From Dillenia suffruticosa (lineage: Eukaryota > Streptophyta > Magnoliopsida > Dilleniales > Dilleniaceae), in NCBI GenBank assembly GCA_033439265.1, contig JAVTVX010000012.1, forward strand, positions 15,163,501 to 15,227,500: a DNA stretch of 64,000 bases, in the 5' to 3' direction. The notes under the pieces are model-generated. The model saw nothing but the letters and a program-made list of their open reading frames with translations. It searched no databases and was not told the DNA's origin. The translations under genes and the position numbers were made by a program. Shown here piece after piece: positions 642-64,000 of the stretch. Positions within the stretch are counted from its first letter, which is position 1; each line of letters begins with the position of its first letter.

Positions 642-2660
642 CATTTAGGGTGTTTCCTACATTTTTTCTTGGGTATTAAAATGCCGAATATCATAAATAA
701 TATGTTATATTCATTAATGACAACCTGATATAGAACTCACTAAATGCTCTCAATTTTACACAGTAGGGTACTTGTTGTATGAGGATAAAATCTATAAAAT
801 TTGGCATGCATCTGATGAGAACATTATGAGATATTGCAAATCCTAACCAAAACTTAATGCACTCGAATCTATAAAAATACTGTCTTTCATGATATAAAAT
901 TTATATAATTAGATTTCTCTTAAAAAATGCTTTCCAACCATATAAAAAATATGATAAATGGTTCAAAATAGAGAGAGATATGACCATCGAAGTTTGGATC
1001 AAAAACCATAAAAATGAAGAAGATGATGAACAGTGTGCATGCCATTCCCACTTTTGGCTACTTCAAGTGAAGTTTCCTCCCTAGGTTAGAGACTTCTGAT
1101 TGAAAATCTGAGAGCACCATTAAACTCAGAGATATAAAAAATGGGGGGGCCAAAATCTCGGAGCCACCCGCCACCGGGAAGATGGCTAGTGCATGTCACG
1201 CGCCACCCTAGGAGAGTAGACGTATGTCTATTTTCGATAGCCCACTCCGGTAGCACATGCATGTATGTGAAGGCCCCATTTCAGCCGGAATTTTCACCGG
1301 AATAATTATTTTTACCCTCCGGATTTTTCTATAATTTTTAATTTATTTTTCAAAGTCGAAAAATAATTTTATTAATTTTTAAACTTAGAAATTGTTTAAA
1401 ATTATAGAAAAATTATTTACAATAAACAAAAAATTTTGAAAATTTTTATATGTGTTAAGAAAATTATTTTCTTAATTTTGGTTACCCAGGTGAAGATTTG
1501 TTTTTTACCCATCATTTGTTTTAAATTTTTGCTCATTTATTTTTATTCAAAAATTTGTTTTTCTAACATATAATTGTTTGAAATTTGACCAAATATCTTT
1601 AAAATTAAATATTCTGAGATTTATTGTAATATTATGGTTGTTTCATGTCAAAGCTAATATTGTTCCCATTTTCAGAGAAAATAGTGATAATTGGACTTTT
1701 TTTGAAAGTTTTTCAGGCCTCTAGGGGAGGGAAAGAGATTTGAGAAGTCTAGAGCGTTTGATGAAATTGGGTCAAATGTTGACTTACAGAATGGACTTAT
1801 CTCATACTTTGCCGGATCATCAGGAGATTATGGAAGTAAACGCTTGGACTTCTTCGGTTAGATCATGCTTTTTGGGGGGGATGACGTGTACATACTGAGA
1901 AACTCTCTGCCTCATTATTGGGCTAACGTAGTTGATGAGTTGCTTGCCAAGAATGAGCATGACTTTGCATGATGTGAAACCATTATCAATAGAAAAGTGG
2001 GAAGTCAAAAATATAGAAACCCAAATGAAGACAAGGCTATCCCAAAATATAAATGATTTCTCACGAGACATCAAGAGATTTGCTTCCAAGGATAGACTAT
2101 CTAAGAAAATTGTAAATATGATATCTCGAATGGATTTGTCATAAATGAGATGATTTATTTATATGTTTTCTTTTACGTATTATGACTGTTGGTTAAGAGC
2201 ATAATCATGAAATAGAGTAACTTTTTTTTAATGTAAAGTTTCTTTTTTTGTTTTTAACAATTGTTTGCTATATTTATTAAAAATATATGATCATGTGGAC
2301 AAAAGAAAACTAAAATCTCTTAAGTAAAATTTTTGGATTAGTAGAATTTGAGTAATTCTTATCCGAAATTAAAATATTATTTAAATAGTTTGAATATTTA
2401 AACGAAAATTTTGGATCGGTTGAATTGAGTAATTTTCATCCAAAATTGTAATATTATTTAAATATTTTGTGTATTTAAGTGGAAGGCTTCATGGTTGACA
2501 GAATTTGAGTAATTTTCATATAAAAGCTATTAAATTTTGTAGTTTTAAATTAAATTTATGATGGTGATACATTAAGACTATAGATGATATTAGAAATTTA
2601 GTGAACCTTCGATTCTATACTTAATATTGATCTGCCATGAATGTTAATTTTGAAATATAA
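642..2660 (+). other. Copia-A leader and unassigned 5' interior
   Basis: About 2 kb between the primer site and the first gag-like similarity. A less AT-rich patch lies near 1140-1310. A short open frame at 1932-2144 (70 residues, lysine- and arginine-rich) resembles no family I know. I cannot exclude that part of this stretch is a further insertion. Confidence 0.4.
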
Positions 2661-3480
2661 AATTATGTGTATGATATGAGAATTAGTATAAGTGTCCACT
2701 CTTTTAGAAAACCAAACCATAGTATCGAAGTCCAATATTGGGGGGCTTGAGTAGAGATGATAAATTGATTGATGACAATCATGGGATATGACGACATAAA
2801 ATTTGATATGTGCTGAAATAATATGATATCTCGGAAGGTATCAAGCATATTATAGAGGACCTTGATGTGAGCAATATTGCTCTGCAAAGGAAAGAAAAAG
2901 AGGTTCATCAAGCATGGAAAATGATGGATTCCATTTTTTGTACAACCCTGGTTAGTTTTGTGATTGATGACATGATACCCGAATGTAAGCAATATGTGAC
3001 TGCTCATGACATTTGGGTGTACCTCATGGTAAAACATAGAGGTATCAATGATTCATTTTAAACAAATTATCATAATGTTTGATACCTATGAAAAGTGATA
3101 TTGTCATAGTATTAAACAGTATTTAAGGTCATGTCTAACATAATCAGAGAGTAGTAGTCAGTTAGTCATGTCATCTCCGATAAATAGAAAGTTCAAAGTT
3201 TTAATCCGGTCCTTTCCTGCTAAGTGGGAGCATCTAAAAGTCAGTTTGACTCACAATGACAGTGTCACTTTAGTATCGTATGAAGACTTTCTCGAATGTT
3301 TCTCACGACGTTGAGCTTAAGGATGAGCGGCTTGGTGCTGGAAGATCCACAGCTTATACTTTTATTGTAGAGTTTAGTTCCAAGAGAAGTTTCAAACTCT
3401 AAGTATAGAATGAGTATAACAAAATCAAGAAAGAAAAGGAGAATGAAGATGGATCACAAAAGAAGAACTCTAGATATATG
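2661..3480 (+). pseudogene. Copia-A gag remnant
   Basis: Gag of Ty1/copia elements forms the virus-like particle in the cytoplasm. The stretch around 2840-3480 translates, in pieces, to copia-gag-like text: a helical run with alternating acidic and basic residues (about 2867-3061), then a segment reminiscent of the 'F-P-x-K-W-E-x-L' gag motif near 3210-3240. No zinc knuckle was confidently read. It is clearly a fossil with several breaks. The gag call rests mainly on position between primer site and pol and on weak similarity. Confidence 0.5.
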
Positions 3481-6410: not shown

Positions 6411-8200
6411 CACTATAAAAAAATACGCTTTTAGTCACAGATTTTCACGACGGAAAAAATGTGCAACAAATTTGGCGACAAAAATTTATTCGTCGCTAAT
6501 TTGCCACAAAATTTGTGATGAAAAAGAAGTCGTGGCTAAATTAGCGACTGACATATCGTCATAGCTAAATTCGTCCCTAATTAATGATGAAAACATTTTC
6601 GTTGTTAAATTCGTCGCTAATTGACGATAAAAAGTTTTTTCGTTGCAAATTTTGTTACTAATTAGTGACGAATAATATTTCGTGGCTAAATTTTGCCACG
6701 GATACAGTGATCGATAGTTAAATTTAGCGAAGAAAAAAGTTCGTGACAAATTTCGTCGCTAAATTTAGCAACGAAAAAATTTCATGGCAAATTCTATCGC
6801 TAATTAGTTTCAAAAATTTTCCATCGTTAAATTTATCGCTAATTAACTACGAAAAAATATTTGTCTCTAAATTTAGCAACGAACTCTAAAATTTGTGACT
6901 ACATTTGTCACTAATTAATCACAAAAAAATATTTATAACTAAATTCGTCACTAATTAGCCACAAAAAAGTGTTCGTGACTAAATTCGTCTCTAATTTATT
7001 ATCTGTATTTCAAAATTTAAGACTAATTTCATAACTAAATTTTTTTTATACTCTATTAGAAAATATTTTCAAGCGTGTCCCCCTTTTTAACCAATTTTGA
7101 ATAACGAAATTGAATTAAATATATAATAAATATTATAATTCTTACCAAATTTAGAATTTTCAATTATAAATAATTCAATTAATCTGTAACAGACAATTTT
7201 CAATAAGTCGCGATTGTGGAGTTCACCATTTATGTATTTCATCTTCTATATCCGTTCACTTCTCTCATATAGTTCAATTGTTTTTGAAAGTTCAATTGTT
7301 CATTTTCATTTGTCATTGTCATCAACATAATAGATGACACATCCATGTCCGACAATTCATCTCATTCGGCAAGTACATCAAATTGTTATATGCTTTTACA
7401 GATAATAAGTAAAAAAATTATTATATTTATTATTTTATTATTATTAGAAAAATGTGAAAAAAAGATAATAAGTAAAAAAAAAATTTGTATATCACATATT
7501 AATATTTGGATTGGTGGATATATGCTTTTATAGATTTATGCATGCACAGGAGTTCGAACCGCTGTGAAGACAAAGCGGAGGCATTTTTCAAGAATTAAGT
7601 GAGGAGGCGGGTGCTGGAGCGGGCATGTGGGGGGCGTGCTTGTAGGCGGGTGCTGGCTCGGGTGGACGGGCACGCTTGCAGATTGGTGCTGGCTCGGTTG
7701 GGTGGGCGGGGGCCCGTCCAGGTGTGCTCCCTTGGGCATTTTGAATTTAGTGACGAATTTGGAATCCGTCGCTAATTTAGTGACGGATTTGTTTTCGTCG
7801 TTAAATTAGTGACAGATAATTTTTCAACTCTAATTTAGCGATAAACTTTTTTTCGTTACTAAATTAGAGACGGATTTTAGTAACGAAATTTATCTGTCAT
7901 TAAATTTAACGATGAATTTTAGATTTTCGTCGCTAAATTTAGCAACGAATTTTTTTCCGTTTTTAATTTAACGACGGATAATTTTTCGTCGCTAAATTTT
8001 GCGATGAATTTTAATGATAAAAAATTATTTGTCACTAAATTTTACAATGAATTTTAGTGACGGTTTTGAATTTCTGTCACTAAATATTTGTGACGCGTTA
8101 TTAGTGACGAAAAATTTTTCGTCGCTAATGTTTTTAATGACGAATTTTTTTAAAATTTCTATCGCTAAATTTATAGCTAAAAGCGTGTTTTTTTGTAGTG
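6411..8200. mobile_element. CACTA-1: non-autonomous CACTA (En/Spm-like) transposon
   Basis: A 1790-bp element that begins CACTATAAAAAAATACGC and ends with the inverted counterpart GCGTGTTTTTTTGTAGTG. The terminal inverted repeats match over 24 bp with two C/T-type differences. It is flanked by the 3-bp duplication TAA (6408-6410 and 8201-8203), as expected for CACTA elements. Both arms are packed with short subterminal motifs of the type TTCGTCGCTAA and its complement, the usual binding-site array of En/Spm transposases. The centre (about 7550-7740) is GC-rich and carries no transposase, so the copy depends on a transposase supplied elsewhere. Related to CACTA-2 at 30887-33110. Confidence 0.9.
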
Positions 8201-8558: not shown

Positions 8559-11032
8559 TGTGACGCCTGTTATCCAGGCGTCGTACCCTCAGCATAAAGG
8601 GAAAAACATGCACTTGCAGAAGCGACTAATCACGATTAAAATATGACATTTGGACTCACACAGTCGCACTCTTTGTGTGTGATAACATATAAGGAGATTT
8701 AGATTAAAAGAAAACCAATTACTTGTCATTTTCAAAAGAAAAATTAGTAGTCTCCCCTATTTAGTGAATATTTAACCACTTGGGGTTAATATAAAACCTG
8801 AAAAAATAATTAACACTTCTATTATCAAACCAACTAACATCAATGACCCTCTTGGCAACCTAACACAACACATCATAGTATATGGTCATTATATTCCCAA
8901 AACCATACGTAAGGTATCCATATGACATAACCATACATCTATACGTACAACATAACTCAAACATCTCAAAATATATATTTACATGTCTTAGACAAAATTT
9001 TAGGGGGTCGTAGATGAGTAGGGATCTAGATCCCAAGACTCAAGTGCCTTTACCCTATGGTTCCCTCTCATTTTCCTGATTACCAGAAAAAAAGGATATC
9101 GAGATCAGTATAAGCTGAACAAGTATATGGGGGACCAATAGCAAGTAGAGTAAACAAGCAGGTACAAGAATATTACACCATATAAGAATCAGAAACATAG
9201 CAAAGTGTACCAAGGATACACATGAACTCAAGAAGACAATCACAATTCCACATTTAGAATCATTATTCTTTTTCCATCTTCGTTGTTCCAATTTAATTCA
9301 ACATTTAAAGAAAAGAATGGAGTGTCGAACCAACCTAGTGTATGAGAGTCTGGAGAGCAATCTAAATTTGGGGATTCCTAAATGAATCTAAGTTAATCTT
9401 TAGGGTTAGACTCTCAATCACTTCTAATTCCATCCTCAAAGGAAGAAGAGATCCATCTATATTCCTCAAGTTTCGCCTGCAGGTTTCGCACAAGCTTGTG
9501 AAACTTTATATGCAACCCGTACTACTCAAGTTTCGCCATTAGGCTTTGTACAAATTTTTGGAGGAATTCATGTGTAATCACTTCCAACACAAGCAGTTTT
9601 TGGGAAAAATGACATAATTCGAACTACAGTGCTCAGATTAAGGTGATTCCAACTGCTACTTAAATTTAAGACATAAAGCTATAACTTTCATGTTCATAGC
9701 TGGGTTCAATTCCAATCACACATGGAAACACATATCAATCAAAGTTACAATTCAAAATCAACAACATAGTTTGAGCAGTCATAGAAAAATGAACATAAGT
9801 TCTCCTGCACAAATCGGATTGAAGTGATTCTAGTGGCTATTTAAAGATAAGACATAGAGCTACAATTTCTATGTTCAGAGCTTTGTCTAATTCAGTCTAA
9901 AGGGTAGCTACAAATCACAGCAAAATTCCACACAGAAACAGGGCAAAAACAGGATTTTCTACAGAGAATGTGCCAAAATTGACCAAAAATTTATTTCTCA
10001 ATGAAAATCTTCGAATCTATGTCATTTTAAAGCTATGTGAGTCTAGTTTAATCAGAATAAAAACGTGTTCCATTTGAAGTTATGTAGAAAACGTTACAGG
10101 CCAAAAACTGAGGTATTGTCAATTTGTCCAGCATGCAGAATTCATGTCATTTCATACCTCTAGGTTAAAAAACGTGACTTCTTTCTTTCCCACATCATTT
10201 CATCCTTATTCTAATACCACAAACAGTTTGAAAAAAATATTAACATGGCTATTAGGCATCAAAGAAACAAACACGCATGGTACTTGTCTCAAATTTATCA
10301 AAATTTTCTTTTGGGTTTCCTTACTTCCCTTTCCAACCTTGTTTTGAATTTCTATGTTGTTCTTTGTGTTTGCTACAGCCCCTTGTACTTTCAAAATAGT
10401 AGGGTTATCATATATATGGGTGAAGGAGATTTATTTCAAGCTCTAGTGGGGGTTTTAATGGAGTTTAGGGTGGATTTTTGGGAGAGGAAGGTTGGTGAGG
10501 GGATTAGGTCTAAGGAAGAGAAAGGTTTGGCTCTCTCTCTCTATCTCTCTCTCTCATTACTTAAGTGAAATGTGGATTTCCCCTAATCCAAGTGGTGTAT
10601 CAAGGGATGGACCATGTGTCCTTGTCGGTTCCATACCAAAACTTATCCCCCTAATGCTAATGGTGTGTCAAGGAATGTATCAAGTGTCTTGTGTCATGCC
10701 TTATAGTAATGTACAAGTGCTCTTTATGGATTCCACACCAAGCCTTTTGTAGGTCTCATATTAAAGCCTAATTTGGTTCTATTGTGAACTCATTCCGACT
10801 ATACTCATTCGCCAATATGTCCCACTAGTTTTTATTAATTCCAGTATATTCGACCTATGCTCAAAACCGCAGACATAAAAACCAAAGCATGCATTACATA
10901 TATGAAAAGAATTCAATGAATTTTAGTCCAAAATAATATGACAAATTTAAATGTTCTCAATAAAATAAAACAAGAAAAGGTAAATGCAAATGTAACTGCA
11001 TGATTTAATGTTTCTCAAAATGAGACCTTACA
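8559..11032 (-). repeat. Gypsy-1 3' LTR
   Basis: A 2474-bp LTR, written TGTGACG to CTTACA on the plus strand. It aligns with 15189-17792 apart from an extra ~130-bp block in the other LTR. A CT-rich microsatellite lies at about 10535-10557. Confidence 0.88.
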
Positions 11033-15188: not shown

Positions 15189-17792
15189 TGTGACAACCCG
15201 CTATCTAGGCATTGCACCCTCTTGCATAAAGGGACAAACATGCAAATGCGAAAGTGACCAATCACGATTGAAATGCAATGTCTGGATTCATGACAATTGC
15301 ACTCCCTATGTGTGATAATACAAAAAGAGATTTAGATTAAAAGAAAACCAATTACATGTCCTTTTCAAAAGAAAAATTGGTAGAATCTCCCCTATTTAGT
15401 GACCATTTTACCACCTGGGGTTAATATAAAATCTGATCAAATAATATAACACTTCTATTATCAAACCAACTAACATCAATGGCTCTCCTAGCAGCCTAAC
15501 ATAACACACCATAGTATATGGTCATTATATTCTCAAAACAATACGTAAGGTATCCATATGACATAACCATACATCTATATGTGCAACATAACTCAAACAT
15601 CTCAAAAACATATATATATATATATATTTACATGCCTTAGACAAAATATTAGGTGGTCGTAGATGAGTAGGGATCTAGATCCCAAGAGTCAAGTGCTTCT
15701 ACCCAATGGTTCCCCTCGTCTCCATGATTACCTGAAAATAAGGATATTGGGGTCAGCATAAACAGAGCAAGTGCACGGGTGACCAATAGCAAGCAAAGTA
15801 AACAAACAAGTACAAGAATATTACACCATATAAGAATCGGAAACATAGCAAAGCGTACCAAAGATGCACATGAACTCAAGAAGACAATCACAACTGCCAC
15901 ATTTAGAATCATTATCCTTTTTCCATCTTTTTTGTTCCGATTTAATTCAACATTTAAAGAAAGGAATAGAGTGTTGAACTAACCTAGTGTATGAGAGTCT
16001 GGAGAGTAAACTAAATTTAGGGATTCTTAAATGAATCTAGGTTATTTTTAAGGTGAGACCCTCAAACACTTCACTTGTTTCTAATTCCATCCTCAAAAGA
16101 AGAAGAGATCCATCTATGTTCCTTAAGCTTGGCCCACAGGCTTCGCACAAGCTTTTAGAGGAATTCATGTTTAATCACTTTCTCTTTATATCTTTTTGTG
16201 ATTCTCACGATGTAATCACCACAACCCCTTACTAGTTTTACACATAAGTTATAATCCAACATCACAATTACACATGCCATGCAATCCTTTGAGTACTCCA
16301 GAACTTGCTCAACAAATTTCCAACACAAGCAGTTTTGGGAAAAATGACATTACTTGAACTACAGTGCTCGGATTAAGGTGATTCCAGCTACTACTTAAAT
16401 TTAAGACATAAAGCTAGAACTTTCATGTTCATAGCTGGGTTCAATTCCAATCACACATGGAAACACAAATCAATCAAAGTTATAGTTCAAAATCAACAAC
16501 ATAGCTTGCGCAGTCATAGAAAAATAAACATAAGTCCTGCACAAAATGGATTGAGGTGATTCTAATGGCCAATTAAAGATAAGACACAGAGCTACAATTT
16601 CTATGTTCAGACTTTAGTCTAATTCAGTCTAGAGGGTAGCTAAAAATCGCAGCAAAGTTTCACGCAGAAACAGGGTAGAAATAGGATTTTGTGCAAAGAA
16701 TGTGTCACTTTGAAAATTGACTAAAAATTCATTTCTCAATGAAAATCTTCGAATTCTATGTAATTTTAAAGTTATGGGAGTCTAGTTTAATTATAATAAA
16801 ACCGTGTTCCATTTGCAGTTATGTAGAAAACGTTATAGGCCAAAAACAGAGGCATTGTCAATCTGTCCAACATGCAAAATTCATGTCTATTCATACCTCT
16901 ATGTTCAAAAACATGACTTCTTTCTTTCCCACATCATTATATCCTTATTCCAATACCACAAACAGTCTGAAAATATATCAACATGGCTATTAGGTATCAA
17001 AGAAACAAACACATATGGTACTTACCTCAAATTTGCCAAATTCTTCTTTTGGGTTTCCTTGCTTCCATTTCCAAACTTTCTTTGAATTTTATGTTGTTCT
17101 TTGTGTTTACTACAGCCTCTTGTGCTTCCAAAAGACCAGGGTTATCATATATATGGGTGAAGAAGATTTATTTCAAGCTCTAGTGGGTTTTAATGGAGTT
17201 TAGGGTGGATTTTTGGGAGAGGAAGGTGGGTAACGGTAGAGGAAGGTGGGTAACGGTATTAGGGGTAAGGAAGAGAAAGGTTTGGCTCTCTTTCTCTCTT
17301 TCTATCTCTCTCTCTCATTACTTAAGTGAAATGTGGATTTTCCCTAATTCAAGTGGTGTATCAAGGGATGGACCATGTGTCATTGTGGGTCCCATACCAA
17401 ACCTTTTCCCACTAACCCAAATGTTGTGTCAAGGAATGGATCAAGTGTCTTATGTCGTGCCTTATAGTGATGTACATGCTCTTTGTGGATCCCACACCAA
17501 GCCTTTTGTGGGTCCCATACTAAAGCCTAATTTGGTGCTATTGTGAACTTATTCCGACCATACTCATTCACCAATATGTCTCACTAGTTTATATTAATTA
17601 TAGTATATTCGACCTATGTTCAAAACCGCGAACATAAAAACCAAAGCAAGCATTACATATATGAAAAGAATTCAACAAATTTTAGTCCAAAATAATACGA
17701 CGAATTTAATTGTTCTCAATAAAATAAAATAAGAAAAGGTAAATGCAAATGTAACTGCATGATTTAATGGTTTCTCAAAATGGGATCTTACA
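15189..17792 (-). repeat. Gypsy-1 5' LTR
   Basis: A 2604-bp LTR, TGTGACA to CTTACA on the plus strand. Contains a short tandem doubling at about 17219-17258 (unit GAGGAAGGTGGGTAACGGTA), a CT-rich microsatellite at about 17290-17318, and an (AT)n run at 15614-15627. Followed directly by the target duplication CTTAG. Confidence 0.88.
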
Positions 17793-45236: not shown

Positions 45237-45841
45237 TGTTAAAATTTGGAATGCGGAAGTATAAGTGATTGAGATAAGGTTTTGTGTTGAGCAATGGATT
45301 GAAAGCTTTGTGTTGAGTGTGTTTGAAGGCTGAAGAACAACAAAGAAAATGAGAGTTTGAATTTATGAAAATGAATTCAATTATATTGTTTTGATGAAAT
45401 ATAAAATGTAAGACACTTTTGTGGAGACAATACTCAATAATATATAAAGACATTTTGAGAGAGATTATACTATATACTAGACTATGGGAGACAATGCTCC
45501 AATGTATTTTTTGAATACAAGAGACCTCCTATTTATAGAGGAAAAGTTGAGGAGAGTCCAATATGACTGTTGGAAGGGCCATCATTGCATTTCAACAGCT
45601 AGAAAAACTAGCTATTGAAATGTGCTCTGTCCATTCTGCCCTTGGCAGATTGGACAGACTGTTGGTCCACTCTTTGGGCCATGAAGGACCTTAAATGAGG
45701 CCATTTTTGAACCTTAAATGGAGCATAAAACTTAGACTTATGGACTCCAAAACTTGCACAAAATTTGGGAAAACTTGCACAAAATTTGGTCTAACTTGAG
45801 CCTTAATGTTAGGGTAATTTTCTTGGGCAGATTTCTGAACA
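45237..45841 (-). repeat. Probable 3' LTR of Copia-G
   Basis: About 605 bp with inverted termini: plus strand TGTTAAAATTTGG at the left and TTTCTGAACA at the right, so the minus strand reads TGTTCAG to TTAACA. It has a TATTTATAG motif near 45532, like the Copia-E LTR. No second LTR is present to confirm the borders. Confidence 0.55.
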
Positions 45842-46231
45842 TTTTCTGTCCAAAAATCTAACTAACTCTTTTGCCCATTTTTGGATAGCCTTCTTGAGTC
45901 TTGACAGCTTTATTTTGGGCCCTTCCTTCCCTTTCTTTCCTTGGACTTTTGATATGCATTTGCTATCAAGGTTCTGGCGAATTAGGGCAATGTACTCGGG
46001 AGGCATCCATTCGCATGCTTTCTTGTATACTTCATCGTCACTTTCAACACTCCTCAAATCTAACGAGTGGAATTCCGTGGAGTCGTGACTTTCGAAGGTA
46101 GAGTCGGATGGTTGAGCTTCCTTAGTCTTCCTTTTCTTGTTATTTTTCTTCTTTTTGGTTTTGGCTTTCGGCTTGCCCCCAATAACTTGACTGGTACTGC
46201 TACATGCACATAGCATTTTTGTTCTCCCCAT
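45842..46231 (-). other. Lysine-rich open frame beside Copia-G, not recognised
   Basis: A minus-strand frame, counted to 45809, gives 140 residues: a Lys-rich run ('KPKAKTKKKKNNKKRKTKEA'), an acidic Ser-rich part, then 'EWMPPEYIALIRQNLDSKC' and a basic amphipathic stretch ('KIKLSRLKKAIQKWAKELV'). It follows copia integrase text. It could be a diverged linker, a captured host fragment or part of another element. I do not recognise it as a family. Its protein-like composition sets it apart from the AT-driven frames nearby. Confidence 0.35.
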
Positions 46232-46870
46232 TGCTCCTTAGTTGGAGCATCCGTAGACAGACTCAGAGGTGCTTTATTACCTAATTCTGCAAAATAATAC
46301 TTGTTTTCGATAAATTTCATATCTTGCGACATATATGCCGTGTTAATTTTAGGTTTATAGCAAATATATTCATCTTTTCTAGGGCCATATCCTAAAAATA
46401 TGCATAATTCTTCTTTTATGTAGCAAACACACTCGAATATTCTAAGATGCATAAGGTTTGGTTTGCTACTTTTAATTGTCTCTAATAGCGACTTATCATT
46501 TAGTGCATATTAAGGAATGCAGTTGTATAAGTGTGTGATGGTGTTAATTGCATCACACCAATATTCATGAGTCATATGTTCATTTTCTGATAGAAAACAT
46601 GGTAATATATTTTTGTCTTCCTCGTTTATAATGAGATTTTTATAACTCATGATTTCTAATCTTATACCCTTTTGATTTAAAAAACTTTCAAAGTTAGGTC
46701 ATATAATTTATTTATCATTCATTCTAAGAGTTTAAATAGATATACTATACACTTTAATAACTAGATGATAGTATTTTCTAAATATATTATGTGCTTGTGC
46801 CATTTTTTAAACATATACACCCATATATATCTAGAGAGATGATCAATAAATGAAATAATGTACTTGTATC
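46060..46870 (-). pseudogene. Copia-G integrase remnant
   Basis: Integrase-core pieces appear leftward from 46870 ('YIISFIDHLSRYIWVYMFKK', then 'EYWCDAINTITHLYNCIP', 'SKPNLMHLRIFECVCYIKEE'), with a C-terminal stretch 'LCIFLGYGPRKDEYICY' and 'AYMSQDMKFIENKYYF'. The order and motifs are those of Ty1/copia integrase. Broken in several places. Confidence 0.82.
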
Positions 46871-46900
46871 ATTCTCTAGACATGCAAGAGGTTTCTGTAA

Positions 46901-48293
46901 TATTTGTTATCATTTATTAAAAATAACTTGTTACCACTTGTTATCATGCAATATAATACAAATTTTATACAATTATTATCTTACCATTTGTATAAATATA
47001 ATAATAATATATAGTAAATATTACTCTAATATATAATAACATAAAAGTAACTATTACATATTACATATATATATATATATATATATATTATCTACATCAA
47101 TATAATATATAAATATAATATAATACTAATATATAGTAATATATTAGTATTGTGTAGTAATATATAGAAATATATTATTGCCCTCGCGGTTGAGCCTCAC
47201 GGGCACCCGCGGATGCACCGCGCAGGCACATGATCATGTAATATATATATAATAATTTATTACAATATTATAATATAATATTATTATACATTATTATTAA
47301 TTTTATATAATTAGTATCATATTTTTACTTAATTCATTTCTAATGTCATGTATATATATAACTTACAACTATTCATCGGCTACCATATAAGTTCCACGTA
47401 TAAATTATATGAGTTCCAAGTTCTATGTATAAATTATATAGACACACAAATATATTTCGTAAATTTAGAAAAATAAAAAATTAATAGAGATAATAAAAGT
47501 ATATGATGAAAATTGAAAAAATACCAATATTACCATTACCAACCTTATCATATTCTATACTATATTCTACATATCCTACATTTACCATATCTTACCATAT
47601 TCTATAACATAGTAATATTATATTATACTAATACAATGGTAATAATTACATTATTTAAATTAATATTAATAATCATAATTAATATAAATTTATATTATGA
47701 AATTACTTATAATTTGTTATAATTTATAGTTATATTATATAGTAATATTAAAATATATTATTATGGCCAAAATTTTTATATAAGTTTTGTATTTCAAGTC
47801 AAGTGAGATATCATACGCACAAAATAAAACAAATCTATCCACGCCATTTGTTGGAAATAAATCTATCCGCATGATTTTTTTTTCTGAATTTATTGGAATG
47901 CGTTATTAATTTTTACTGACATTTTTCACCGCCGTTTTTTCAATCATGAGGACTTTAGTAATTGTTTTAGTTATAGTGAATACCCTCTTTCTTCTTTTAT
48001 TATATGTTTCTAATATTTCCATATGTGTTATTTTTCTATTATCTTAGTAATATGATTCTTAACACTTGTTAATAATGTGATTTTTAAGACTTATTACGTT
48101 GGTTCATACAAACAGATAAATTTATAACATTATTTTCCATATTTTTCAATGTTTTGTTAGGTTTTATACAATTGTTGCCTTACAACTTATTGAAGAAGTT
48201 GAACCAATCGTCAAATGAACTTGTTAGCTTGTTAACATTTGTTATTTTTTATCCATCACTTGTTAACATGTCCTATATGATAGAGAATAAAAG
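46901..48293 (+). repeat. AT-rich long repeat F1
   Basis: First of two adjacent direct copies, offset 1393 bp from F2. Landmarks: TATTTGTTATCATTTATTAA at the start, an (AT)n run at 47065-47088, a GC-rich island at 47178-47233, ATTACCATTACCAACC near 47530, and GTTTTAGTTATAGTGAATAC near 47960. Its last ~700 bp recur inverted in R1 and R2. No coding capacity is evident. Confidence 0.85.
47178..47233. repeat. GC-rich island in F1
   Basis: CTCGCGGTTGAGCCTCACGG and a following CGCGCAGGCACATGATCATG stand out in >80 percent AT surroundings. The same island recurs in F2 at 48557-48615. Confidence 0.85.
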
Positions 48294-49640
48294 TATTTGT
48301 TACCATTTATTAAAAATAACTTGTTATAACTTATTATCATTCGATATGATACAAATTTTATATAATTATTAGCTTACTATTTAAATAAATATAATAGTAA
48401 TATATAATAAATATTACTCTAACATATAATATCATAATAGTAACTATTACATATTATATATATTATCTACAAAAATATAATATATAAATATAATATAATA
48501 TAGTAGTAATATATAGTAATATAGTAGTAATGTATAATAATATAAAGAAATATATTATTGTCCTCGTGGTTGGACCGCACGGACACTAGCAGCTGTGCCG
48601 CGCAAGCACATGATCATGCAATATATATAATAATTTATTACATTATTATAATATAATATTATATATATATATAATATAATATAATATTATTATACATCAT
48701 TATTAATTTTATATAATTAGTATCATATTTTTACTTAATTCATTTCTAATGTCATATGTATATAACTTATAACTATTTCTTGCCTACCATATAAGTTCCC
48801 CATATAAATTATATAGACACACAAATATATTTCATAAATTTAGAAAAACAAAAAATTATATAAAATAAAAAATTAAGAGAGATAATAAAAGTATATGATG
48901 AAAAGGAAAAAAATACCAACATTACCATTACCAACAAATGCTTACCATTACTAGCCTTACCTTACCATATTCTATACCATATCTTACATATTCTACATTT
49001 ACCATACCTTATCATATTCTATAATATAGTAATATTATATTATACTAACACAATGGTAATAATTAAATTATTTAAATTAATATTAATAATTATAATTAAT
49101 ATAAATTTATAAATTTATATTATAAAATTACTTATAATTTGTTATAATTTATGGTTATATTATATTGTAACGTTAGAATATATTGTTATGGCAAAAAATT
49201 TTATAAATTTTTACATAAGTTTTGTGGTTTAAGTCAAGTGAGATATCATATGCACAAAACAAAACAAATTTATCCGCACGATTTTTTTCTCGCGTGTTTT
49301 TCATTTACAAATTTATTGGAATGTATTATTATTTTTTACCATCATTTTTCACCGCCTTTTTTTAATCGTGTGGAGTTTAGTAATTGTTTTAGTTATAGTA
49401 AATACACTATTTCTTCTTTTATCATATATTTCCGGTGTTTTCATATGTGTTATTTTCCCATTAGCTTAGTAATGTGATTTTTAACATTTGTTAGTAATGT
49501 GATTTTTAAAACCGGTTACGTTGGTTCATATAAACAGATAAATATGTAACATTATTTTCCATGTTTTTCAATATTGGGTTAGGTTTTATACGAATTTTAT
49601 ACAAGTTTTATATAAATTTTATAGGATTATTGCATTACCA
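48294..49640 (+). repeat. AT-rich long repeat F2
   Basis: Second direct copy: TATTTGTTACCATTTATTAA at the start, island at 48557-48615, ATTACCATTACCAACA near 48922, and GTTTTAGTTATAGTAAATAC near 49388. The right boundary is approximate. An open frame at 49151-49477 inside it is not preserved in F1 and is not considered coding. Confidence 0.83.
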
Positions 49641-49979
49641 GTTGTCATGAAATACATTTATTACTGGCATTTGTTATTTGTTATACATCTCGTGTAGAAC
49701 ACCTTAAACCTTACTTGTTACGATTTGTTAAAGTCACTTATTACAATTTCTTACCATCCTATATTATACAAATTTTATACAATTATTATATTAACAATCC
49801 TCAAATGCCCTTGTGGCTTGTTATGTAATAGATTATTTCTAATCACTTATTACTATATCCTATAGTACTTAAAAAATCACTTGTTATCATACCATATTAT
49901 ATAAATTTTATACAATTATTGTTTACCATTTGTTAAAAATCCTTTGTTACACGCCATATTATACAAATTTTATACAAGA
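49641..49979. repeat. Short-unit cluster around TTATACAAATTTTATACAA
   Basis: Three near-identical TATACAAATTTTATACAA or TATATAAATTTTATACAA tracts (about 49774, 49898, 49959), each preceded by CACTTGTTA-type text. The same unit opens F1 (46960) and F2 (48348). This cluster is the hinge between the forward and inverted repeats. Confidence 0.7.
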
Positions 49980-52500
49980 AAGAAGAAAGATGGGGTATTC
50001 ACTATATCATATGACTAAAACAATTATTAAAGTCCGAACAATCAAAAAAGATGGTCCATCCCATAAAAATTTATAATGAAAAAACACGCTGAATGGTTTA
50101 AATTTTCTAATGAAAAATGACGCAGAAAAATTTATTTTCAAGCGGTCACTTGAAACATAAAAGAAGAAAGAGAGGATATTCACTATATCATGTGACTAAA
50201 ACAATTATTAAAGTCCGAATGACTAAGATTAAAAAAGAAGGTGGTAAAAAATAATAACGCATCCCACAAAAAATTGTAAAGAAAAACACACGAAATGGTT
50301 TAAATTTTCTAATGAAAAATGACAAGGAAAATTTTATTTTCAAGTGGTCACTTGAAACATAAAAGAAGAAAGAGGGGATATTCACGATATCATGTGACTA
50401 AAATAATTATTAAATTCTGAACGATTAAGATTAAAAAAGAATGTGGTCAAAAATAATAACGCATCCCACAAAAAATTGTAATAAAAAACATATGAAATGG
50501 CTTAAATTTTCTAATGAAAAATAGCGCGGAAAAATTTATTTTCAACATTTGTTTTGCGGTCATTTGAAACATAAACTATGAATCCTAGGTCGACTATTGA
50601 AGTCATGAAAGTCGAAAAAATTTATAAAAATTTTGGCCATAATAATATAATTTAACATTACTATATAATACAACTACAAATTATAATAAATTATAAATAG
50701 TTTCATAATATAAATTTATAAATTTATTATAATTATGATTATCAATATTAATTTAAATAATATAATTATTGCCAACGTAATTAGTAATATTATTATATTA
50801 GTATAATATAATATTACTATATTATACAACTTAATTATCATATTCCTTAATTATAAAATTTAAAATATAAATTATTAGTTAATTATAAAATCTAAAATAT
50901 AAATTATCATATGAATTAAGTATGTAATTAATATAATTAATTAAAATAATGTAATGCATCATCTACATCAACGCATATCTCCATCACATTCCTTATTTAT
51001 AAAAAAATTTAAAATATAAATTAAATATGATAATTTAATTAATATTATTATTTTAAATAATATAATCATATGAAATTTTTATGTAAATATAAAATTACGT
51101 AACAATATAGTAATAATAAGATAAAATATATATTACAATGTAATAATATAGTAATAATATTTACTAATGGTAGTGATAGTTATATAGTACAATATAGTAA
51201 TATTTACTAGTAATAATATAGTAATATAGCAGTAATAAGATAAGATTATGTATATGCGGTGGAGCTGTCCTGGCCAGATTAAATATTTAGTACAATATAG
51301 TAATATAATAGTAATATTTATTAATAGTAGTGGTAGTTATATAGTACAATATAATAATATTTATTAGTAGTAATATAGTAATATAATAGTAATAAAATAA
51401 AATAATGCATGCACAGTTGAGCGAACCTGACCAGATTAAATATATAGTACAATGTAATAATATAATAGTAATATTTACTAGTAGTGGTGGTAGTTACTAG
51501 CAGTAGTAGTAGTTATATAGTACAATATAGTAATATTTACTAATAGCAATATAGTAGTAATAAATTAAGAGTCTGTATGCGCGGTTGAGCCGTCTTGGCC
51601 ACGCAAGGCATGCCCCTGCTTGTGCTTAATTTAAAATTTTAATATTATTATTTTTAATTAATATAATTTAAATTATTAATATTATTAATTTAAATAATGC
51701 AATAAAATTAAGTTAGTAATTTATATAATATAGTGTTATAATTTATTTTTTATTATTAGACAATATACATGATAGTAATACTTTAATTATTAATTATGAA
51801 TATTATATAATTTAATATAAATTCCCAAAAATACAGTTAAGAACATTAACATTAATATTAAATTATTTTAATTCATATTTAATTTAACATTTACGATCTA
51901 CAATTTTAACATTTCAATGACAACTCCATAATAAAATCTTTAATTTTTGCGCCAAAAATAATTTTTCTATCTACATCCAATTTAGTCAAATTTCATACCA
52001 AAAACCAATTTTCAGGTCAAATCCAATTTAATCAATTTTTTGTGCCAATTTTTCAATTTATTCCGATTTAATCAAATTTCTTCCTCCAAAATGCTAAAAT
52101 GATTTCTCTTTTGTTTTGCTCCGTATTTCAATGTAACTTTTCTAAGTTATGATAACTGACGACAAAATAATAATATTTTTTAATACTTGTATAACTGATG
52201 ATACAATAACTTATACTAACAGATGTGACAAACGATAATTAAAAGTAGTAAATTTACTAACACATATGGCATCCGATAATAAAAGGTAATAACATTTACT
52301 AACATAATAACATTTACTATGGTAACCCACAATGAAAGATAATAATATTTTTAACAGATATGATAATTGATGATAAAAGATAATAGTATTTACTAACATA
52401 TATAATTACTGACAATAAATGACATAACATTTCCAAACATATATAGCAACCGACGATAAAAAATAGTAACTTTTACTAACATTCTTCTAACCGTTAATAT
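49980..52500 (-). repeat. AT-rich long repeat R1
   Basis: Starts with three tandem ~180-210-bp units (49980, 50161, 50363; AAGAAGAAAG start) whose complement is the GTTTTAGT end of F1/F2. It continues inverted to F through CATAATAATATA, then has its own section with three GC islands (51245-51280, 51405-51437, 51566-51625) and a tail of GATGATAAAAGATAATA-like units. Aligns with R2. Confidence 0.8.
51566..51625. repeat. GC-rich islands in R1
   Basis: GTATGCGCGGTTGAGCCGTC followed by TTGGCCACGCAAGGCATGCC. Shorter versions of the same text lie at 51245-51280 and 51405-51437, each ending in CCAGATTAAAT. Confidence 0.83.
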
Positions 52501-52933
52501 ACATCTCTTACACTTATCATAACTTACATATCATACACTTACCATATCTTACATATCCTACACTCTCTCTTTTTTTCATTCGATTATCTCACTACTCCTT
52601 TCTTCGTTTTTCCTTATCTCGCCCGCACTCTATTTTTTTCCTTGTTTTTTTTTTCCTTTTCTTTTTTTCTCTATTCTAAGTTAAACTTTTTCTTAACAAA
52701 CTTTTTTTCTTAACAAACGTTACAAATTACAAATTACAACTCGGCTACCATATAAATTATATACACACACAAATATATTTCATAAATTTAGAAAAGTAAA
52801 ACCTTATATAAAATAAAAAGTTAAGAGAGATAATTAAAGTATATAATGAAAATGGAAAAAATACCAAATTTACCATTACGAACCAACCTTACTATTATCA
52901 ACCTTACCATGCCATATTTTACAAATTTTATAT
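52501..52933. repeat. Junction between R1 and R2 with a forward F-type fragment
   Basis: Begins with ACTTACCATATCTTACATAT-like short units and a T/C-rich tract (52560-52690). At 52738-52925 follows a fragment in the same direction as F1/F2 (CGGCTACCATATAAATTATA onward, ending ACCATGCCATATTTTACAAA). Confidence 0.7.
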
Positions 52934-55118
52934 TAGAATAGGGTATTCATTATATCACGTGACTAAAACAATTATTAAATTCCGAACGATTCAACAAAAA
53001 TTTGTAATGAAAAAGCTTGCAGAATGATTTAAATTTACTAATGAAAAATGGCGCGAAAAATTTATTTTCAACGTTTGTTTTGCGCGGTCACTTAAAATAT
53101 AAAAGAAAAAAGAAGGGATATTCACTATATCATGTAACTAAAACAATTATTAAAATCTGAACGATTAAGATTAAAAAAGAAGATGGTTAAAAAATAATAA
53201 CGCATCTCACAAAAATTTATAATGAAAACTATGCAAAATGGTTTAAATTTTCTAATAAAAAATGATACGAAAAAATTTATTTTCAATATTTGTTTCGCGG
53301 TTATTTGAAATATAAACTGTGAACCTTATGTCAACTATTGGAGTAATGAAAGTCGAAAAAATTTATAAAAATTTTGCCCATAATAATATAATATAACATT
53401 ACTATATAATACAACTATAAATTATAACAAATTATAAGTAGTTTCATAATATAAATTTATAAATTCATTATAATTATGATTATCAATATTAATTTAAATA
53501 ATATAATTATTAACAATGTAATTAATAATATTATTATAATAGTATAATATAATATTATTATGTTATACAACTTAATTATCATATTCCTTAATTATAAAAT
53601 CTAAAATATAAATTATCATATAAATTAAGTGTGTAATTAATATTATTAATTTAAATAATATAATGCATCATCTCATCAACGCACATCTCCACCAGATTCC
53701 TTATTTATAAAAACGTTAAAATATAAATTAAGTATGATAATTTAATTAATATTATTATTTTAAATAATATAATCATGTAAAAGTTTTATGTAAATATAAA
53801 ATTATATAACAATGTAGTAATAATAAAATAAAATATATAGTACTATATAATAATATAATACTAATATTTACTACTAGTAGTGATAATTATTAGTAGTAGT
53901 GGTAGTTATATAATATAATATAGTAATATTTACTAGTTGTAATATAGTAATATAGTAGTAATGAGATAAAATTATGCATGCGTGTTTAAGCCGTTTTGGC
54001 CAAATTAAATATATAGTACAATATAATAATATAATAGTAATATTTACTAATAGTAGTGGTAGTTATATAATACAATATAATAATATTTACTAGTAGTAAT
54101 ATAGTAATATATGCGCGGTTGAACCATCCTGACCAAATTAAATATTTAATATATTGTAGTAATATAATAGTAATATTTACTAGTAATAGTGGTAATTACT
54201 AGTAGTAGTGATAGTTATATAATACAATATAACAATATTTAATAGTAGTAATACAATAATATAGTAGTAATAAGATAAAATTATGCTTGCGCGGATGAGC
54301 CGTCTTGGCCACATAAGGCATGCCCCCGCCTGTGCTTAATTTAAAATTTTAATATTATTATTTTTAATTTATATAATTTAAATTATTAATATTATTAATT
54401 TAAATAATGCAATGATATTAAATTAGTAATTATATAATATAGCGTTTTAATTTATTTTTTATTATTATATAATATACATGATAATAATACATTAATTATT
54501 AATTATCAATATTATATAATTTTATATAAATTCCAAAAAAAAGTTAAAAACATTAACATTAATATTAATTTATTTTAATTCACATTAAATTTAATATTTA
54601 CGATTTACGATTTTAACATTTCAATGACAATTTCAAAATAAAATCTCTAATTTTCGTTCTAAAAACAAATTTTCTATCCACATCCAATTTAATCAAATTT
54701 CGTATCAAAATCAATTTTTCAGGTTAAATCCAATTTAATCAAAATTTTCTTTTTCATGCCAATTTTTCAGTTTATTCCAATTTAATCAGATTTCTTCACG
54801 CCAAAATGCTAAAAACAATTTCTCTTTTGTTTTGCTCCTTATTTTAATGTAACTTTACTAACTGACGGTAACCGACAACAAAATAATAATATTTCCAAAT
54901 ACTTGTGTAACTGATGATACAAACAGTAACTTATACTAACAGATGTGACAACGATGATAAAAGATAGTAAATTTACTGTGGTATCCGATAATAAAAGGTA
55001 ATAATATTTACTAACATATGTAATAACTGACAGTAAATGACATAACATTTTATAACATAAATAGTAATCGACGATAAAAGATAGTAACTTTTACCAACTC
55101 TCTTCTAACCGTACCATA
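52934..55118 (-). repeat. AT-rich long repeat R2
   Basis: Second copy of R1, offset about 2.6-2.7 kb. It has two instead of three tandem units at the start (52934, 53104), the same inverted F section, three GC islands (53973-54005, 54112-54142, 54286-54340) and the same GATGATAAAAGATAGTAA tail. No gene seen. Confidence 0.8.
54286..54340. repeat. GC-rich islands in R2
   Basis: CTTGCGCGGATGAGCCGTCT with TTGGCCACATAAGGCATGCC. Shorter relatives lie at 53973-54005 and 54112-54142. Order and spacing match the islands in R1. Confidence 0.83.
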
Positions 55119-55310
55119 TCTTACTACACTTACTATACCTTACCATATCTTATCAAAACTTACCATAGCCTACAAATCCTATACTTACCATATCTTGCTA
55201 CACTTATCATACCTTACATATCCTACACTTACCATATTTATCATATCTTACTACACTTACCATAACTTACCGTAGCTTACCATGTCAATATCTTATCACC
55301 TTTATAACCT
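55119..55310. repeat. Short tandem units of ACTTACCATATCTTAC type
   Basis: Roughly a dozen imperfect units of CTTACCATATCTTACTACA and shortened forms. A similar but smaller cluster lies at 52500-52560, so it belongs to the tail of the R repeats. Confidence 0.75.
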
Positions 55311-55572
55311 TCCACATTTGTATCTTATTACTTCTTTACCCCCTCCCACTCACAAAAACAACACTTATACTAATTAATTAACACACTCAATATAACTCTA
55401 TAAATAACTCTATAAATAACTCTATATAAACGGTGGATGATAACTGTCAATATAACTCTAAATCAGTACTTACTAAGTCACCAAATTATTAAAGAAAACT
55501 ACCTATATTTACCTATCACAAGTTATAGCTGTAAACATACAGCATTGCCTATACAAACACCTTTCAAATCGT
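55311..55572. other. Unassigned AT-rich DNA
   Basis: Includes three CTCTATAAATAA-like units at 55393-55430. A stretch at about 55494-55560 resembles the first part of the adjacent candidate MITE. No gene seen. Confidence 0.4.
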
Positions 55573-55859
55573 CACTACAAAACCTATATTTAGCAATCAC
55601 AAATTATATCCGTAAAGATAAAACTTATGTAAATACAGACATGTTTATATCCGTAAGTATAGAATATTATTTATACAAATGCTATGCACCTTTAGCCATG
55701 GTTGAAAATCTTTTTTCGACGACAATTTTAAAACCATAAGAAAATATATAGTATTTTTTATGGTTTCAGCCATAATAGTCTATATAACTTCAAAAAAGCG
55801 TAAGTAAAACTTACTGACAATCAATGTTACCGTCGAGATAATTCTTTAATTTTGTAGTG
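55573..55859. mobile_element. Candidate CACTA-type MITE
   Basis: 287 bp with a perfect 10-bp terminal inverted repeat, CACTACAAAA at the left and TTTTGTAGTG at the right, the standard CACTA end. The flanking triplets (CGT and AGA) do not match, so a target duplication is not visible. Non-coding. Confidence 0.5.
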
Positions 55860-55917
55860 AGAGAAAAAGATAGTAGAAGGACTAATTGAGTCGAAAAATC
55901 AATTTGTTTTCACAAAA

Positions 55918-56590
55918 GGCGCCAATCTGTTGGGGTTAGATTTGGTTCCACATATAATAAATCTGCTAACTCAAACAGGACGGTATGACTGTCTGGTGAT
56001 CTTGAATGATGAGACCTGCAAAAATCGCTAGAGGGTGGTCCGACGGGAGAGGTTCTGACGCTCAAGTTATAGAGCGATTTTTGAAAAAAAGGAAATAGAC
56101 TCATGGCCAAAGAAAGCGAGGAAACTCTTTATACTCGTGTGCTCTGCGTGGGTCAATAGGACTTATCTGGACAGTAGACATATTAGAGCTTATATAGCTT
56201 TTAGGTGTAAGAGCCATGTGCAAGTGGAGTGATAAAATCCTAGTTTTCTTACAAGGGTGTCCCGAGATTTTCGAAAAATCATGTCGTAGGACTCTCAAAG
56301 AATGCATAGCTTATTGGTCTTGGAAAGTCCAAATTGTCACTAAAATTCTTTCTCAACGGCTATAGCTGTAGATTTCCTTCCCTAGGATTTTTTTCGTCTT
56401 TTTAGAGAGAGCGAATATCACGGTATTTGACCGAACAACTCATACCGAGCACTAAGGGGGTCTAAGAATCTACCAACTGAAGTACCGAGCAAGCGAACGT
56501 TGAGAGATGTGCTCGGTGTGTACCAACGAGGGTCTGTTGAAGGGCTGCGGGCGTGACTAACCTCTAGGCCCCCGTACAATTTGGGCCATG
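55918..56590 (-). repeat. Candidate Tat-type Ty3/gypsy LTR with primer-site region
   Basis: GGCGCCAATC at 55918-55927 is the complement of GATTGGCGCC, the text around the primer site that follows the 5' LTR in many Tat/Ogre elements. Directly right of it TGTTGGGG could be the LTR terminus. Text such as TGCTCGGTGTGTACC near 56510 also resembles Tat LTRs. The right border is a guess and no partner LTR is present. Confidence 0.35.
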
Positions 56591-56730
56591 TACCATCTAC
56601 TCTCGTATGATTCCATCTTAAATTATGTAAAACAACTATTAAGTAGAAAAGTTCAAATTTATTGAGGAAGTTGTTATTATTTACTTTTCAGTTTATAAAG
56701 GTCAATATTTTTTCCCATCTTTTCAAATTT
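56591..56730. other. AT-rich flank of Gypsy-T
   Basis: Short stretch up to the Gypsy-T LTR. AATTT at 56726-56730 would be the left half of that element's target duplication; the right half is beyond the window. Confidence 0.4.
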
Positions 56731-57857
56731 TGTCACGCCCCGAACCGGGATCGTGAACAGCCGCCCGTTGTCCCTGGATGCCGGCTGTATTTTTACAGAA
56801 AATCGGGCAGAATCTCCCCATAAATCGGAGGTTTCCCATGTACAATTTCACCTGTATATGACATTCATCCTGTAAAAATAAATAATTGGTCATCCCGGCC
56901 TCTCCAAAATCAACAGATATCCCAGCCAACATCCAGAACAACGCAAGGCTATAAAGTTCATAGCAGTCCTAGCAACAGACCTCTACTGTCACGCCCAACT
57001 AGAGCATGAGCAGCCGCCACACCGAGCGGACTTAAATTCTACGCATATATAAAATAAATTCCCAAGTTATTTTTAAATATTTACAAATGCCTCAATGTAA
57101 TGAAATAATCAACACGAAAGTTTCGCGAATAAAAGTACATAATTTATACAGTCATCCCAAAAATTTAGATAAATAGAATGGTCAAACTAAAATCTCCAAT
57201 ATATATAATAATATCACCAATCATCGTAGCGGAAAAAGATGAAAAATATCCATACCCAAACCCAGTGATATCTCCTCGGTCCAACACTAATCCTGTGGGA
57301 AAGAAAGTGAGGGGTGAGTATCTATGGGAGGATACTCAGTAAGTGAGGGGATTGACATCATACTATCAATATCGAGGTGAATTTGGAGTGTCAAAGTATA
57401 AGATAAGAAAATATCCACAGTGTGCAAACTGATCATGTTATTTCCAAAATCATATGTCACACGCACACATCAAAAAGCAAGATATGCATCCAATATTCAC
57501 ATCAATGTCATGAAGAGCCGACAAATGAAATATTCCCGGCAATGGTCTACCTCGACCAAGGACGGCGCATTGGGGGTTTTTCCAAATGCAAGTATTAAAG
57601 AATGGCTCTCTACCCCAATGTTGGCCACAGACTACTCCAACTAGCCTGTAAATAATAATAATGTACATATAACTAGTCAGCCGTGTATGGTGCCCCCGCC
57701 TGGTGCTAGACGGAGCTGTACTCAACGTCCTCTCCGATGAAGGTCAACCTGGGACACCCATACACACGACAATCTGGCGGATACCTCCGGCCGAAGCGTA
57801 TCCGGACACAAGGGGTGGACCAAATGTCCTTCGTAGCTACGGATCACAATATCATAT

Positions 57858-58047
57858 CAGCCGGGCACGTAGCCCCATGCATCCCATCACCAGATCAGCC
57901 GGGCATATAGCCCCATGCATAATATCATAACGTCAGCCGGACATACAGCCCAATGCATAATATCATAAAGTCGGCCGGGCATACAGCCCAAAACATAATA
58001 TCATAAAGTCGGCCGGGCATATAGCCCAAATGTGTAAATAAATCCAT
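57858..58047. repeat. Five-unit 38-bp tandem array in the Gypsy-T 3' LTR
   Basis: Units begin at 57858, 57896, 57934, 57972 and 58010, exactly 38 bp apart, each starting CRGCCGGGCAYRYAGCCC or a one-base variant. The other LTR shows the same units at 63903, 63941 and 63979 before the window ends. Confidence 0.93.
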
Positions 58048-62771: not shown

Positions 62772-64000
62772 TGTCACGCCCCGAACCGGGATCGTGAACA
62801 GCCGCCCGTTGTCCCTGGATGCCGGCTGTATTTTTACAGAAAATCGGGCAGAACCTCCCCATAAATCGGAGGTTTCCCATGTACAATTTCACCTGTATAT
62901 GACATTCATCCTGTAAAAATAAATAATTGGTCATCCCGGCCTCTCCAAAATCAACAGATATCCCAGCCAACATCCAGAACAACGCAAGGCTATAAAGTTC
63001 ATAGCAGTCCTAGCAACAGACCTCTACTGTCACGTCCAACTAGAGCATGAGCAGCCGCCACACCGAACGGACTTAAATTCTACGCATATATAAAATAAAT
63101 TCCCAAGTTATTTTTAAATATTTACAAATGCCTCAATGCAATGAAATAATCAACACGAAGGTTTCGTGAATAAAAGTCCATAATTTATACAGTCATCCCA
63201 AAAATTTAGATAAATAGAATGGTCAAACTAAAATCTCCAATATATATAATAATATCACCAATCATCGTAGCGGAAAAAGATGAAAAACATCCATACCCAA
63301 ACCCAGTGATATCTCCTCGGTCCAACACTAATTCTGTGGGAAAGAAAGTGAGGGGTGAGTATCTATGGGAGAATACTCAGTAAGTGAGGGGATTGATATC
63401 ATACTATCAATATCGAGGTGAATTTGGAGTGTCAAAGCATAAGATAAGAAAATATCCACAGTGTGCAAACTGATCATGTTATTTCCAAAATCATATGTCA
63501 CACGCACACATCAAAAAGCAAGATATGTATCCAATATTCACATCAATGTCATGAAGAGCCGGCAAATGAAATATTCCCGGCAATGGTCTACCTCGACCAA
63601 GAACGGCGCAATGGGGGTTTTTCCAAATGCAAGTATTAAAGAATGGCTCTCTGCCCCAATGTTGGCCACAGACTACCCCAACTAGCCTGTAAATAATAAT
63701 AATGTACATATAACTAGTCAGCCGTGTATGGTGCCCCCGCCTGGTGCTAGACGGAGCCGTACTCAACGTCCTCTCCGATGAGGGTCAACCTGGGACACCC
63801 ATACACACGACAATCTGGCGGATACCTCCGACTGAAGCGTATCCGAACACAAGGGGTGCCTCTACCAGATGTCCTTCGTAGCTACGGATCACAATATCAT
63901 ATCAGCCGGGCACGTAGCCCCATGCATCCCATCACCAGATCAGTCGGGCATATAGCCCCATGCATAATATCATAACGTCAGCCGGGCATACAGCCCAATG
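62772..64000 (-). repeat. Gypsy-T 5' LTR, cut by the window end
   Basis: The first 1229 bp match 56731 onward at about 98 percent by eye, with one small length difference near 63856. The remaining ~1.66 kb should lie beyond the window. Confidence 0.93.

Follow-up and report, generated by a model that had tools for sequence, protein, structure and literature searches.

Which kind of sequence is represented by an AT-rich complex of long repeats, 8.4 kb in length, in which forward copies are followed by partly inverted ones? The question is raised by positions 46901-55310 of a 64,000-nucleotide stretch of Dillenia suffruticosa DNA (contig JAVTVX010000012.1, positions 15,163,501 to 15,227,500; C12:15163501-15227500 in our contig naming), hereafter called the window. 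Two forward copies (F1 and F2) and a partly inverted relative, also in two copies (R1 and R2), had been described there in a sequence-only reading, which proposed a satellite-like family, a foldback transposon with very long arms or a matrix-attachment/origin-like region. The present analysis identifies 46901-55859, with very little doubt, as the interior and right end of a non-autonomous DNA transposon of the CACTA (En/Spm) superfamily. The CACTA family itself is new, within a well-known superfamily whose defining features, as given in the available parts of two published accounts (PMC2613891, PMC8978399), are CACTA terminal inverted repeats, 3-bp target duplications and subterminal motif arrays.

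Right end and insertion site

No recognisable transposon end had been seen in the interval first delimited; the right end of the transposon lies just outside it, 549 bp further on, at 55859, where the element finishes in ...CTTTAATTTTGTAGTG. The piece at 55501-55858 follows R, in matching order and orientation, in loci C24a, C17a and C12d, with part of it in C29a, and it finishes on TTTTGTAGTG, which is a CACTA terminus. When the genome (596 Mb, 37 contigs) was searched with 55480-55862, 63 rows were obtained. Besides the window's own row, 39 were long matches (of at least 328 bases) and 23 were short pieces. The long matches listed all stop at query positions 375-383, and 37 of the 39 stop within 379-383 (55858-55862), query position 380 being base 55859.

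The right flank of the element is itself a dispersed repeat: among the 40 other listed matches to 55840-56640, 18 start at 55859-55861 and none earlier. Three empty-site paralogues of this repeat, 78-80% identical to one another over about 1 kb spanning the site, were fetched, and since all three continue uninterrupted through the window's right insertion point, the transposon is considered to have inserted at 55859/55860. The paralogues read ...ATGATG-GAGAGAAAAAG... where the window reads ...TTTTGTAGTG-AGAGAAAAAG..., C13's copy being one A shorter, and the 3-bp target of the window copy is presumed to be AGA. The upstream half of the interrupted target repeat was not found within the window.

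Complete relatives in the genome

A search with F1 (best 40 of 1248 first-look candidates scored) gave at least 238 matching pieces, counting those of the window, spread over many contigs, and 20 kb were fetched around each of ten matching loci. Upstream of F, a left end reading CACTACAAAAGAAATG(T/G)CTTATA was found in C24a, C18a and C29a. The 29-base left-end pattern, with up to 3 mismatches allowed, yielded 143 matches (66 + 77) vs. 0 for the reversed control, the listed matches taking in related families, and the left end of C18a (572 bases) used as a query yielded 98. Left ends could be matched to right ends of the same contig and strand at distances of 8.4-29 kb, the paired relatives opening with a CACTACAAAAGAAATG-type end and closing with a TTTTGTAGTG-type end. 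The left end is CACTACAAAAGAAA and the right end, read inward, is CACTACAAAATTAA; the first 10 bp are identical and the terminal repeat is imperfect. As a whole, the CACTA terminal inverted repeats of the relatives are CACTACAAAAGAAATG on the left and CACTACAAAATTAAA on the right, some with single changes.

The flanks of other copies, whose inspection the sequence-only reading had recommended, carry identical 3-bp target duplications in 10 of 14 paired relatives, namely eight of the ten fetched pairs (ACA, TCT, ATT, AAA, GAA, AAT, AGT and GAT), C18a (AAC) and C30a (TAT). GAT belongs to one of the longest members, of 29 kb, at C9:17148056-17177204. Subterminal motif arrays are present at both ends: CTTACCAT/ATGGTAAG was counted 24 times at six right ends vs. 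0.45 expected, and AATGTTAC/GTAACATT 21 times at five left ends vs. 0.2 expected (1 kb per end, both strands, base-shuffled controls), the counts not being independent because the ends are homologous to one another.

Concerning their layout, complete members start with the left end CACTACAAAAGAAATG, followed by a motif array, an arm partly inverted with respect to R, one or two F units, R or related modules, a further motif array and ...TTTTGTAGTG; in C24a (8.4 kb), left arm, F, R and right end stand in that order. Blocks inverted relative to R are located left of F at 2237-3074 in C24a, 2209-3105 in C18a and 552-1167 in C30a (element coordinates), and in the left arm of C11 only small inverted pieces match R. 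Also, the left subterminal stretch of C24a is an inverted match of its right one (71% over 253 bp), and the left end of C30a an inverted match of 52245-52494 of the window (73% over 256 bp). The window-type right end is found in C11, C12d, C17a and C24a (81-86%), and the left ends of C18a and C30a resemble those of C24a and C11 (81-85%).

C18a (L013+L014) and C30a (L011+L012) each possess two TTTTGTAGTG right ends, in tandem and about 270 bp apart, as well as nested stretches related to window repeats at 56.7-59.5 kb and 21.9-23.3 kb.

Repeat architecture and alternative explanations

The two pairs of long repeats were confirmed by self-comparison. F1 (from 46901) and F2 (from 48294) are direct repeats at an offset of about 1393 bp, with 84% identity over 1343 aligned bases, a Kimura two-parameter (K2P) distance of 0.178 and a gapped BLAST identity of 78%; R1 and R2, offset by about 2.7 kb, are 88% identical over 2063 aligned bases (K2P 0.134; 83% gapped). 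The top direct match reaches 2293 bits vs. a best of 45.5 in 100 dinucleotide shuffles and 57.2 in 50 shuffles preserving local composition, and the top inverted match 214 bits vs. at most 63.5 and 75.2, respectively. Ahead of R2, 52748-52921 has the same orientation as the F piece 48800-48974 (87%). The reported AT-richness also stands, GC content being 18-25% across eight 1-kb bins (47001-55000), and so does the lack of coding sequence, to the extent that no open frame of 150 amino acids or more occurs within the repeat region; neither Rfam (gathering threshold) nor a tRNA scan gave a hit in the window.

As for the long inverted repeat described between the tail of F and the head of R, the inverted relation is real but takes the form of modules rather than of a single very long arm: one of about 195 bp (85%), in which 49020-49212 pairs with both 50616-50810 and 53357-53551, and others of about 138-145 bp (71-73%). 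Foldback (FB-type) transposons have inverted repeats built of repeated modules, a likeness extended by the inverted modules that F and R have in common and by the arm, partly inverted with respect to R, of the complete copies. The earlier proposal of such an element was right in calling for a transposon, but a foldback origin is very improbable: the inverted parts in the window are internal and short (about 60-195 bp, 71-92%), being modules mirrored between two arms, and the ends of the family form a short imperfect CACTA inverted repeat, of which the first 10 bp are identical, flanked by 3-bp duplications in most pairs.

The doubling of both F and R and the 157- and 202-bp tandem units inside R could also point to a satellite-like or tandem-array family growing by unequal exchange, and CACTA elements can bear satellite arrays near their 3' end, according to the available part of PMC8978399. 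We nevertheless hold this origin to be highly unlikely, as the genome search with F1 lists single units or pairs dispersed among many contigs, each of the ten loci read contains either one F unit or two, the right ends of the dispersed copies coincide, and no long array is found among the matches listed, which are lower bounds.

A Helitron is scarcely credible, and so is a Mutator/VANDAL-type element whose long repeats are non-coding: although the dense short-motif arrays are like the non-coding parts of VANDAL elements (available part of PMC5735166), neither a perfect GC-rich hairpin followed by CTRRT (either strand, 46501-56000) nor an end pair with both a good inverted repeat and a duplication of 9-11 bp was found, and the family shows CACTA ends and 3-bp duplications. 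The narrower idea of a VANDAL/VANC element, taken from the dense short motifs, was dropped on the CACTA ends, the published VANC motifs being left uncounted. A matrix-attachment or origin role, of which AT-richness is the one sign seen, is not needed.

Left break

The left limit of the complex is a break and no natural end. When the adjacent Copia piece (46300-46915) was used as a query, 37 of the 39 other listed copies stopped at 46902-46904, and homology to the transposon begins at 46901, as aligned with the relative L061; three bases (TAT) belong to both homologies. As this overlap would suggest, the break at 46901-46903 is probably a deletion or rearrangement closed by end joining; alternatively, the junction may be an assembly error. 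When the left portions of eight loci of the family were used as queries (the left end being known for five, and the leftmost part of the fetched sequence being taken for three), the left arm was not found elsewhere in the window; outside the element, the sole matches were those of the C12d left portion to another CACTA-like stretch, at 6.7-8.0 kb. Around the interval, a direct search for inverted ends in pairs with target duplications gave AT-rich chance pairs only, because the left end is missing. Nesting of the transposon in the Copia remnant was considered and rejected, since the right flank gave chance-level matches only against 2 kb of a Copia relative. The features of the element and of its two borders are listed in Table 1.

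Table 1. Features at and around the CACTA element of the window
Position	Strand	Feature	Evidence
45239..46903	-	Left flank: remnant of a Copia-type long terminal repeat (LTR) retrotransposon, with Pol SH3-like domain in frame at 46063-46509; broken at 46903	Pfam PF25597, E 3.6e-11
46901..46903	.	Left junction: Copia homology to 46903, transposon homology from 46901; left arm and terminus missing	Copia copies, L061 alignment
46901..48293	+	F1, internal non-coding transposon module	Self-comparison, genome matches
48294..49740	+	F2, second F copy, in tandem	Self-comparison, loci of relatives
49741..49968	+	Hinge of TATACAAATTTTATACAA units between F2 and R1; a TATACAAATTTTATACAA unit also heads F1 and F2	Sequence, repeat family D11
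49969..52520	+	R1: 202-bp units (in part inverted with respect to F), followed by 157-bp units and lastly by motifs of subterminal type	Self-comparison
52740..52921	+	Direct-orientation F segment (vs. 48800-48974) ahead of R2	87% identity
52908..55283	+	R2, second R copy	Self-comparison
55112..55283	+	Subterminal array of CTTACCAT-type motifs	Motif and repeat scans
55375..55426	+	Short subterminal array of ATAACTCTATAA units	Repeat scan
55480..55859	+	Right terminal region common to dispersed copies; internal CACTACAAAA at 55573	Genome matches ending together
55844..55859	+	Right terminal inverted repeat CTTTAATTTTGTAGTG, inward reading CACTACAAAATTAAAG	End comparison across relatives
55860..55862	+	AGA, presumed to be the right-hand target duplication (3 bp); its left counterpart is lost	All three empty-site paralogues fetched

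Coding capacity

With four Tnp2 proteins of the genome as queries, no Tnp2 was found inside the complete copies C11, C18a, C30a and C24a, which are therefore non-autonomous; at C24a and C12d, the Tnp2 matches sit past the right end of the copy. With 2257 candidates, of which 150 were scored and listed, Tnp2 is abundant in the genome, so that a helper could exist, though none is tied to the family.

Related open-frame fragments (RGPTRC...NELNQ) were noticed on the minus strand in the left arms of two members (L015:2749-3519 and L027:3584-3969), occurring in C29a and C12e. They look somewhat like the DNA-binding protein of plant En/Spm (CACTA) elements, a likeness unsupported by Pfam: the fragments had no supporting match up to E 10, and two weak, unrelated ones were below the cut-offs.

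Points against the CACTA assignment

Several observations weigh against reading 46901-55859 as part of a CACTA family. Four of the 14 pairs are without a perfect target duplication (GGA/AGA, AAC/AAA, C11 with GTT/GTC, and C24a), so the locus with the clearest layout, C24a, is one in which this test fails, and the 14 do not include the two candidate pairs at C17:17.39-17.41 Mb and C18:6.36-6.39 Mb. The window copy has no left end, which puts its own duplication beyond checking. The right ends of C18a and C30a are of another type, 87% identical to each other over 397 bp and about 68% identical to that of the window over the last 140 bp or so; the family is thus not uniform and comprises at least two subgroups. 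Finally, an autonomous partner was not found, no Tnp2 lying inside the other pairs among the best 150 of the 2257 candidates, as compared by eye, and at C12b, where a Tnp2 gene is located about 5 kb right of F, neither family end was found within the 20 kb fetched.

History of the F copies

A tree of 15 F copies is near-star, with end branches of about 0.03-0.10 and none of its 12 inner branches passing the support limits. Such a shape fits one long-past burst of spread and, having no well-supported fork, does not tell the age of the F1/F2 duplication relative to that spread. A tree of R pieces, some of whose rows overlapped, was set aside. The divergence between F1 and F2 of the window is about equal to that between copies of different loci. 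Two F units are also present in C30a and C29a, and C26a has two about 10 kb apart.

Other repeats in the window and genome

A further CACTA-type right end (TTTTTTTGTAGTG at 8200) terminates a stretch at 6489-8200 with GTGACGAAT/CGTCGCTAAATTTAG-type motif arrays; its left partner CACTACAA was not found in the window. Two direct pairs were also observed. The first, 8559-11032 and 15189-17792 (about 2.5 kb, 85-88% identity), possibly represents the LTRs of an old retrotransposon around 11.2-14 kb. The second, 56731-57955 and 62772-64000, is 97.5% identical, about 6 kb apart, and includes a 38-bp tandem array (TCAGCCGGGCATATAGCCC...); it may be a recent insertion truncated by the edge of the window, and it has relatives nested within two of the CACTA copies, C18a and C30a. 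At the genome level, many identical related CACTA left ends (CACTACAAAATAAATGACTTATTCAGACG) occur among the matches listed on C4, at about 8.3-10.8 Mb and 16.2-18.4 Mb, an indication that a younger related family is clustered in these regions.

Comparison with known elements

One of the nearest comparisons is with the soybean element Tgmt*, as far as the available part of its description goes (PMC2613891). Both have imperfect CACTA terminal inverted repeats (13 bp in Tgmt*), a 3-bp target duplication and asymmetric subterminal motif arrays, and both are large (20.5 kb for Tgmt* and 8.4-29 kb for the present family). Unlike Tgmt*, the four complete copies read here contain no Tnp2, the AT-rich interior is non-coding, with duplicated and mirrored modules, and the window copy is without its left end. 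The Jozin CACTA elements of Chenopodium, likened here without sequence comparison, were in part found via their transposases, according to the portion of PMC8978399 available. A short CACTA-type terminal repeat is what sets the present family apart from the FB-type elements considered above. A literature search combining CACTA with tandem and inverted repeats and AT-richness returned no match.

Proposed mechanism and significance

Anatomy, target duplications and empty sites were observed directly; on the basis of CACTA biology, we infer that family members probably moved by cut-and-paste, the transposase of an autonomous relative acting on the terminal repeats and a DNA-binding partner protein on the subterminal motifs. 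In the window copy, F and R each occur twice, the left arm and left end are missing, and F1 is joined to the Copia remnant; with its left end gone, this copy should be immobile. It is conceivable, if unlikely, that F, R and the left arm with its partial inversion, as mirrored AT-rich modules present in duplicate, form a functional cargo whose duplication aided the burst; they may, for example, hold binding sites for a family-specific protein aiding transposition or countering silencing.

A transposon end that seems absent can thus reflect an interval drawn too short on one side and an element broken on the other. Under the CACTA assignment, the repeat complex is ordinary genome debris and no new sort of element, and what looked odd becomes an ordinary, classifiable CACTA family, which has clear ends as well as target duplications and empty sites and can serve in repeat annotation.

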